Source: Nigrospora sphaerica
Taxonomy: Eukaryota; Ascomycota; Sordariomycetes; Amphisphaeriales; Apiosporaceae
Assembly: GCA_018287875.1 (NCBI GenBank)
Contig: JAGVVL010000017.1
Coordinates: 1,054,001-1,118,000, forward strand
Direction of reading: 5' to 3'
DNA length: 64,000 nucleotides
The translations under genes were made by a program, and so were the position numbers. This document shows positions 4,038-54,387 of this stretch, one piece after another; the stretch's first letter is position 1, and every line of letters begins with the position of its first letter. The notes beneath the pieces are model-generated. The model was not told the DNA's origin, did no database searches, and saw nothing but the letters and a program-made list of their open reading frames with translations.

Positions 4038-4169
4038 GCCGTGCTGACGCAATGGTTAGCGTGTCAGACTTTTAATCTGAAAGCTATGGGGTGAGTTATC
4101 TTCGTCGCCCGACAAAAGGATTCGCGCATGTACTAACGTGTGCTCAAAGTTCGAATCCCATGCATGGCG
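4038..4169 (+). tRNA. tRNA-Lys(UUU) interrupted in the T-stem by a 59-nt spliceosomal-looking insert
   Basis: Bases 4038-4090 plus 4150-4169 form a complete 73-nt tRNA. The acceptor 4038-4044 (GCCGTGC) pairs with 4162-4168 (GCATGGC, one G-U). The D-stem is ACGC/GCGT. The anticodon stem TCAGA/TCTGA encloses the loop CTTTTAA with anticodon TTT at 4071-4073. The variable loop is AAGCT, and the T-stem is ATGGG/CCCAT around TTCGAAT. The discriminator is G4169. An A box (TGACGCAATGG, 4045-4055), a near-intact B box (AGTTCGAATCC, 4148-4158) and a T10 terminator indicate Pol III transcription. The T-stem forms only if 4091-4149 is removed. There is no canonical 37/38 intron. The tRNA identity is seen directly; function in vivo is inferred. 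Confidence 0.9.
4091..4149 (+). other. Putative intron inside tRNA-Lys(UUU), spliceosomal type
   Basis: 59 nt lying between T-stem bases 4090 and 4150. It begins GTGAGT, a strong fungal 5' splice site also used in the DAHP synthase, MYND and LRR genes here. It contains an exact TACTAAC branch box at 4131-4137 and ends with AG at 4148-4149, 13 nt after the branch A. Its length is typical of nuclear mRNA introns of this genome. The 3' end reads AAG, whereas every other 3' splice site assigned in the window is CAG or TAG. The junction can shift by one base without changing the product. There is no internal TTTT that would stop Pol III. Confidence 0.75.
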
Positions 4170-4176
4170 TATTACG

Positions 4177-4186
4177 TTTTTTTTTT
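4177..4186 (+). terminator. Pol III oligo-T terminator of tRNA-Lys
   Basis: Ten consecutive T residues start 7 nt after the discriminator base. This is a standard strong RNA polymerase III stop. Confidence 0.85.
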
Positions 4187-38698: not shown

Positions 38699-38784
38699 GG
38701 TTGATTAGTGTAGTGGTGATCACATCGGATTCTGATTCGCAGCAATCACTTCCGGGGACGAGGGTTCAATTCCCTCATCGACCT
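38699..38784 (+). tRNA. tRNA-Gln(CUG) with a canonical 14-nt intron
   Basis: The acceptor 38699-38705 (GGTTGAT) pairs with 38777-38783 (ATCGACC, one G-U), and the discriminator is T38784. The anticodon stem TCGGA (38725-38729) pairs with TCCGG (38751-38755). The anticodon CTG is at 38732-38734. A 14-nt intron (38736-38749) sits between positions 37 and 38, the standard site for the tRNA splicing endonuclease. The T-arm is GAGGG-TTCAATT-CCCTC. A run of T follows directly as terminator. The resemblance to fungal tRNA-Gln is strong. Confidence 0.9.
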
Positions 38785-54264: not shown

Positions 54265-54383
54265 ACATACGACCATAGCTTCCAGAAAACTCGGGATCCC
54301 GTCCGCTCTCCCATAGATAAGCTGGAAAGCGCCGAATTAGTACTAGGGTCGGTGACGACCTGGGAATCCTCGGTGTTGTATGT
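54265..54383 (+). rRNA. 5S ribosomal RNA (dispersed copy, divergent variant)
   Basis: 119 nt. It starts ACATACGACCATAG and ends GTTGTATGT; these termini pair as the 9-bp helix I. The body has the eukaryotic 5S order: helix II GCTTCCAG paired with CTGGAAAGC (one bulge), the GGGATCCCGTCCGCTC loop region, ATAAGC, then TTAGTACT and GGGTCGGTGACGACC leading to GGGAAT. It follows my memory of Neurospora 5S closely at both ends and in loops, while helix II differs in sequence but still pairs. T5 follows the 3' end. Isolated 5S genes scattered through the genome are normal for Sordariales. Confidence 0.88.
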
Positions 54384-54387
54384 TTTT
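54383..54387 (+). terminator. Pol III oligo-T terminator of 5S rRNA
   Basis: Five T residues immediately at and after the 5S 3' end. Confidence 0.75.

Follow-up and report, generated by a model that had tools for sequence, protein, structure and literature searches.

A probable spliceosome-type intron in the T-arm of a tRNA-Lys(UUU) gene of Nigrospora sphaerica

The genome of Nigrospora sphaerica contains a nuclear tRNA-Lys(UUU) gene in which 59 nucleotides intervene between tRNA positions 53 and 54. In its anatomy this is, on good evidence, a nuclear tRNA gene that contains a spliceosome-type intron. Judged from its sequence, the insert is probably a U2-type spliceosomal intron that was acquired at this site, and it is probably spliced. 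The gene is found at 4038-4169 of the window, the 64,000-nucleotide stretch that was analysed (C9:1054001-1118000 of a 51.6-Mb assembly in 33 contigs). Coordinates given below without a contig refer to this window, and the tRNA position numbers (20a, 47, 59, and 53/54) were assigned by us. The features of the locus are collected in Table 1.

Table 1. Features of the split tRNA-Lys(UUU) locus, in window coordinates.
Feature	Position	Strand	Basis
5' exon, tRNA positions 1-53 (acceptor 5' strand, D arm, anticodon arm, variable loop, T-stem 5' strand)	4038-4090	+	Rfam RF00005 match; alignment to the intact C13 copy
Presumed A box, TGACGCAATGG	4045-4055	+	Identical in the intact copy; box consensus
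Insert of 59 nt, proposed spliceosomal intron	4091-4149 (4090-4148 with a 1-nt slide)	+	Missing from the C13 paralog; single-copy in the genome
Proposed 5' splice site, GTGAGT	4091-4096	+	Sequence; same start in two U6 introns
GGATTC within the insert, pairing with GAATCC at 4153-4158	4118-4123	+	Best fold of the unspliced RNA
Predicted 8-bp hairpin containing the branch box, -9.3 kcal/mol	4124-4143	+	Folding prediction
Proposed branch box TACTAAC, branch A at 4136	4131-4137	+	Sequence; branch A 13 nt from the insert end
Proposed 3' splice site AAG, first AG past the branch box	4147-4149	+	Sequence; intron-set comparison
Presumed B box in the DNA, AGTTCGAATCC, its first two bases being the terminal AG of the insert	4148-4158	+	Sequence
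3' exon, positions 54-73 (T-loop, T-stem 3' strand, acceptor 3' strand, discriminator G)	4150-4169	+	Rfam match; alignment to the C13 copy
Ten consecutive T, likely terminator for Pol III	4177-4186	+	Sequence

The Rfam tRNA model (RF00005) matches the whole region with 45.2 bits, the gathering score being 29, and the extra bases are taken up in the T-loop. ARAGORN reports no tRNA here with the insert in place, anticodon-loop intron options included, and calls tRNA-Lys(ttt) when 4091-4149 are omitted. In the joined form every stem pairs, with a single G-U pair that is also present in the paralog. The preliminary description, which was made from the sequence alone, held that the tRNA is complete only without these nucleotides and that the insert sits in the T-arm of a gene with no intron at 37/38. 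Both claims are borne out by the model match, by the ARAGORN call on the joined form, and by the alignment to the paralog.

The paralog is an intact, intronless tRNA-Lys(UUU) copy on contig C13 (C13:1753141-1753213, 68.5 bits); the preliminary description had raised the question of further such genes, and this is the one that was found. Without the insert, the split copy aligns to it free of gaps, with 70 of 73 positions identical, and because of this alignment the ends of the insert are fixed independently of any splice motif. They can slide by one nucleotide, since a G precedes GTGAGT and a G also ends the insert. The two loci have unrelated flanks, which share just a 13-nt match (E 0.34). 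One BLAST search and one pattern, which a divergent third gene could escape, gave no tRNA-Lys(UUU) genes other than these two, and the genome tRNA search, where 63 of 1243 candidates were scored, is a sample and not a census.

The three differences between the copies fall at 20a, 47, and 59, which are all unpaired positions; the chance that three random changes would all do so is 0.07. Three changes at usually free positions, with no stem broken, lend weak support to the product being used. In its divergence from the paralog (3/73) the split gene is unlike the uniform sets with which it was compared, where all five tRNA-Lys(CUU) loci and all three tRNA-Gly loci are identical, as taken from a score-ranked list that favours identical copies. 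The differences at these three exon positions may be older than the insertion, and the split copy may be dispensable, an intact paralog being present. It had been argued from the perfect pairing that the product is still under selection. The pairing itself holds for all stems, but the argument for selection is weakened because an intact paralog exists and the exon differences could be older than the insert.

That GT and AG stand exactly at ends set by the intact paralog argues for a spliceosomal intron. Two signals are those of the U2 type: the first base of the insert opens a GTRAGT start in the form GTGAGT, and the branch box contains CTRAC. The insert ends in AG, in the form AAG and not YAG. 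Three versions of an ab initio intron catalogue over 147 kb, with 5, 8, and 225 calls, were for the most part unconvincing, and motif-defined sets were used for comparison instead. The pattern was GTRAGT-N20-50-TACTAAC-N5-14 followed by CAG or AAG, with the reversed pattern as control. The CAG form occurs at 52 places genome-wide (8 for the control) and the AAG form at 20 (10 for the control). Of the 52 CAG matches, one was a second match with the same start and was dropped, which leaves a comparison set of 51. As both sets were chosen by GTRAGT and TACTAAC, they are informative on length, spacing, and acceptor, and not on these motifs themselves.

The 51 introns have a median length of 59 (47-75) and a median distance from branch A to the end of 12 (9-18). 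The tRNA insert, with 59 and 13 nucleotides, respectively, is thus mid-range in both. It shares the GTGAGT start with 15 of the 51, and its acceptor is the first AG past the box, as is the case for CAG in 48 of the 51 and for AAG in 13 of the 19 other AAG rows. The start, the box, the end, and the length that had been read from the sequence are all in place, and the suggestion that the insert has the size of mRNA introns in this genome agrees with the median of these motif-selected introns. The loose signature GTRAGY...CTRAY...AG fits two of 207,420 59-mers, drawn from both strands of the window and of four 10-kb stretches, and one of the two is the tRNA insert; its fit exceeds what chance would give. 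The reservation about the acceptor was also well placed, the AAG form standing out less from its control than the CAG form; in the part of the U3 survey that was available, the acceptors of U3 introns are YAG in all but one (PMC5832005).

The DNA of the split gene has the A box, B box, and terminator that are expected of a functional Pol III tRNA gene, the T run starting eight bases past the last tRNA base. The A box is assigned by its consensus. For the B box we take the consensus to be GGTTCGANTCC, with which 10 of 11 positions agree. The insert breaks the B box of the tRNA gene, yet its terminal AG restores the near-consensus AGTTCGAATCC in the DNA. The distance between the boxes is 92 bp with the insert and 33 bp without it. 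There is no TTTT anywhere in the insert.

Folding predictions place the branch box in a hairpin where branch A is paired with the U at 4131. Its unpaired probability is 0.105, a value that is as low in three of the 51 comparison introns, and the openness of the TACTAAC box as a whole is ordinary (22 of 51 as low or lower). At -46.6 kcal/mol, the most stable structure predicted for the unspliced RNA retains the stems of the acceptor, D, and anticodon arms, but the 3' side of its T-arm is paired with GGATTC in the insert, and a structure constrained to the true T-stem is less stable by 4.0 kcal/mol. Given this predicted mispairing, end processing might possibly wait for splicing.

The intact paralog, the AAG acceptor, the predicted pairing of branch A, and the 3/73 differences from the paralog all count against spliceosomal function. 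They would suit a dead insertion, in which an intron or intron-like DNA recently entered a redundant tRNA gene that is now an undecayed pseudogene. Further, according to the available text of PMC4090602, when one among many synonymous tRNA genes of a eukaryote has a short insertion in the D- or T-arm, it is generally regarded as a pseudogene. The locus does not have the marks of decay: all stems are unbroken, the T10 run is retained, and the B box is near consensus, as may still be true of a young pseudogene. A complete intron signature exactly at the ends of the insert is not expected without selection, unless the DNA was an intron when it arrived. On balance a dead insertion appears unlikely, although it is the alternative to be taken most seriously.

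Removal by the spliceosome is made plausible by the U6 genes, since two with an intron exist and the insert would likewise be removed from a Pol III transcript. The two U6 genes above the Rfam cut-off (C12:3548859-3548964 and C9:780997-781108) both contain a spliceosome-type intron, of 53 and 51 nt, with the layout GTGAGT...GCTAAC/ACTAAC...CAG/TAG. The upstream exon ends in ...GAAACGATA or ...GAAATGATA, and after the intron follows CAGAGAAGATTAGC; both introns directly precede CAGAGAAG, and the full-length Rfam matches run into intron sequence. The search scored 47 of 2132 candidates and is likewise no census. From the need for U6 we infer that these introns are spliced, and very probably the spliceosome already acts on Pol III transcripts in this genome. 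A weak U6-like match of 34.3 bits at C16:950496-950594 is below the cut-off and was not counted. It runs through the U6 intron site without an intron and with many changes, and is perhaps a decayed copy of a spliced U6.

Among the other small RNAs, U3 is matched at C12:2147890-2148174 and C7:2457677-2457963. No intron is evident in either, because all 274 positions of the model are covered within 285 and 287 nt. U3 introns are found in the vast majority of Pezizomycotina, according to the available part of PMC5832005. The window itself contains a full 5S rRNA gene without an insert at 54265-54384 (100.7 bits).

We propose that the second tRNA-Lys(UUU) copy acquired a U2-type spliceosomal intron between its positions 53 and 54. 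The split gene would most likely be transcribed by Pol III, with the A box and the near-consensus B box as promoter and the T10 run as terminator. The 59 nt would next be removed by the spliceosome at GTGAGT, TACTAAC, and AAG, as the U6 introns of the same genome must be, and the usual processing of the tRNA ends would come after splicing. Removal by the spliceosome is in our judgement the best explanation of the insert, and a likely one. In a bolder version, which we regard as evenly poised, the spliceosome would regularly produce a nuclear tRNA out of a Pol III transcript; the intron in the B box would leave as a lariat, and its terminal AG would be both 3' splice site and part of the B box.

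Another possibility is that the insert is excised by the tRNA splicing endonuclease or by some other tRNA-type route, as for introns of Cyanidioschyzon and of the Guillardia nucleomorph. T-arm introns are excised in those algae; in Guillardia this happens by an unknown route, and many of its introns have no defined bulge-helix-bulge (BHB), as far as the text available of the two sources tells (PMC3978253, PMC4090602). At the junctions of the tRNA-Lys(UUU) insert no BHB was found, strict or relaxed, in either register, and the site is between 53 and 54 and not at the canonical 37/38; the usual Sen route is therefore not indicated, and excision by Sen at a BHB was rejected. A tRNA-type route would moreover leave the spliceosomal signals unexplained, and we consider it very improbable.

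The sequence comes from a single assembly, which would allow for an assembly or sequencing artefact. The insert is unique in the genome and has a coherent intron signature, unlike the product of an error, and an artefact is more improbable still. An introner-like mobile intron was rejected, as a 63-base query matched only itself genome-wide at E <= 10. No target-site duplication was seen, at most 1 nt (G) being common to both ends. An intron of an overlapping protein gene was also rejected: each of the three forward frames has a stop within the region, and no stop-to-stop frame of at least 120 aa spans it on either strand. The strict intron pattern followed by a B box occurs at two places in the genome, and only the split tRNA-Lys(UUU) is a tRNA; the other, at C33:1812880, was rejected as a second split tRNA, since cmscan found no tRNA there at E <= 1. 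The pattern is limited to a single insertion point and a single form of the B box, and other split tRNAs are possible. An exact 26-base pattern had no match in viral contigs or prokaryote genome contigs.

Some further observations were made in the window and in the assembly. For one protein of the window the best named relatives include Seiridium, Pseudomassariella, Neoarthrinium, and Apiospora, with identities of about 70%; by this single protein the host is probably a sordariomycete closer to Xylariales/Amphisphaeriales than to Sordariales. A frame on the reverse strand at 480-1892, about 2 kb from the split tRNA, encodes a HET (heterokaryon incompatibility) domain. Contig C19 (836,366 bases) is a bacterial contig in this fungal assembly. 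It contains a full-length bacterial 16S at 355600-357145 (1535 bits) and many bacterial-looking tRNAs, several of them followed by an encoded CCA, and may represent an endosymbiont or a contaminant. No prokaryote genome contig was matched by an exact 31-base pattern from the 16S of C19. With the bacterial model, SSU rRNA matches of 475-611 bits are obtained on contigs C22, C24, and C27; C22 has two of them, about 91 kb apart, with repeated sets of tRNAs. These contigs are probably mitochondrial, C22 containing the unit twice.

Splicing of tRNA, by the Sen endonuclease and a ligase, and splicing of mRNA, by the spliceosome, are treated as separate systems; the bridges known between them consist of spliceosomal introns in a small number of RNAs, U6 and U3 among them. 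The fungal U6 introns resemble the tRNA insert in being short GT...CTAAC...AG introns in a small, structured Pol III RNA, and in this genome the GTGAGT start is shared. They differ in that the insert here breaks the internal B-box promoter of its host, a tRNA, and in that U6, unlike a tRNA, sits at the core of the spliceosome. The canonical tRNA intron, placed at 37/38 and removed by the Sen endonuclease, also resides in nuclear tRNA genes. An example is the tRNA-Gln(CUG) at 38699-38784, which has an ordinary anticodon-loop insertion, and canonical-type tRNA introns are thus also present in the window. The tRNA-Lys(UUU) insert differs from these in position and signals and, presumably, in the enzyme.

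The U3 snoRNA introns of fungi are likewise spliceosome-type introns in a structured non-coding RNA, and in some genomes intron-bearing and intronless U3 copies coexist, as do the two forms of tRNA-Lys(UUU) here. The RNA is a different one, and 138 of 310 U3 genes are interrupted against one tRNA gene in our case (PMC5832005). In the portion of this 2017 survey that was available, U3 and U6 are so far the sole small structured RNAs in which introns are known to be frequent (PMC5832005). Ectopic tRNA introns, as known from Cyanidioschyzon merolae, the Guillardia theta nucleomorph, and archaea, are also located outside 37/38, the T-arm included. Those of C. merolae and the archaea have BHB motifs and are processed by the tRNA endonuclease, whereas the insert described here has no BHB and carries spliceosomal signals. 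The Guillardia insertions are 3-24 nt long, against 59 nt here (PMC3978253, PMC4090602), and those in the T-arm are really excised, by an unknown route (PMC4090602). No described case of a spliceosomal intron in a nuclear tRNA was found in a literature search of incomplete coverage, nor does one appear in the available portions of PMC5832005, PMC10161547, PMC4494063, PMC3978253, PMC13149111, PMC11782384, and PMC4090602.

If the proposed reading is true, a tRNA gene with a spliceosomal intron would form a new bridge between tRNA splicing and mRNA splicing. The spliceosome would be able to process a tRNA precursor and leave a product that can fold. With an intact paralog and three marker bases, the locus offers a clean test of how introns enter Pol III genes, and the same system could be used to test how splicing competes with tRNA folding and end processing.
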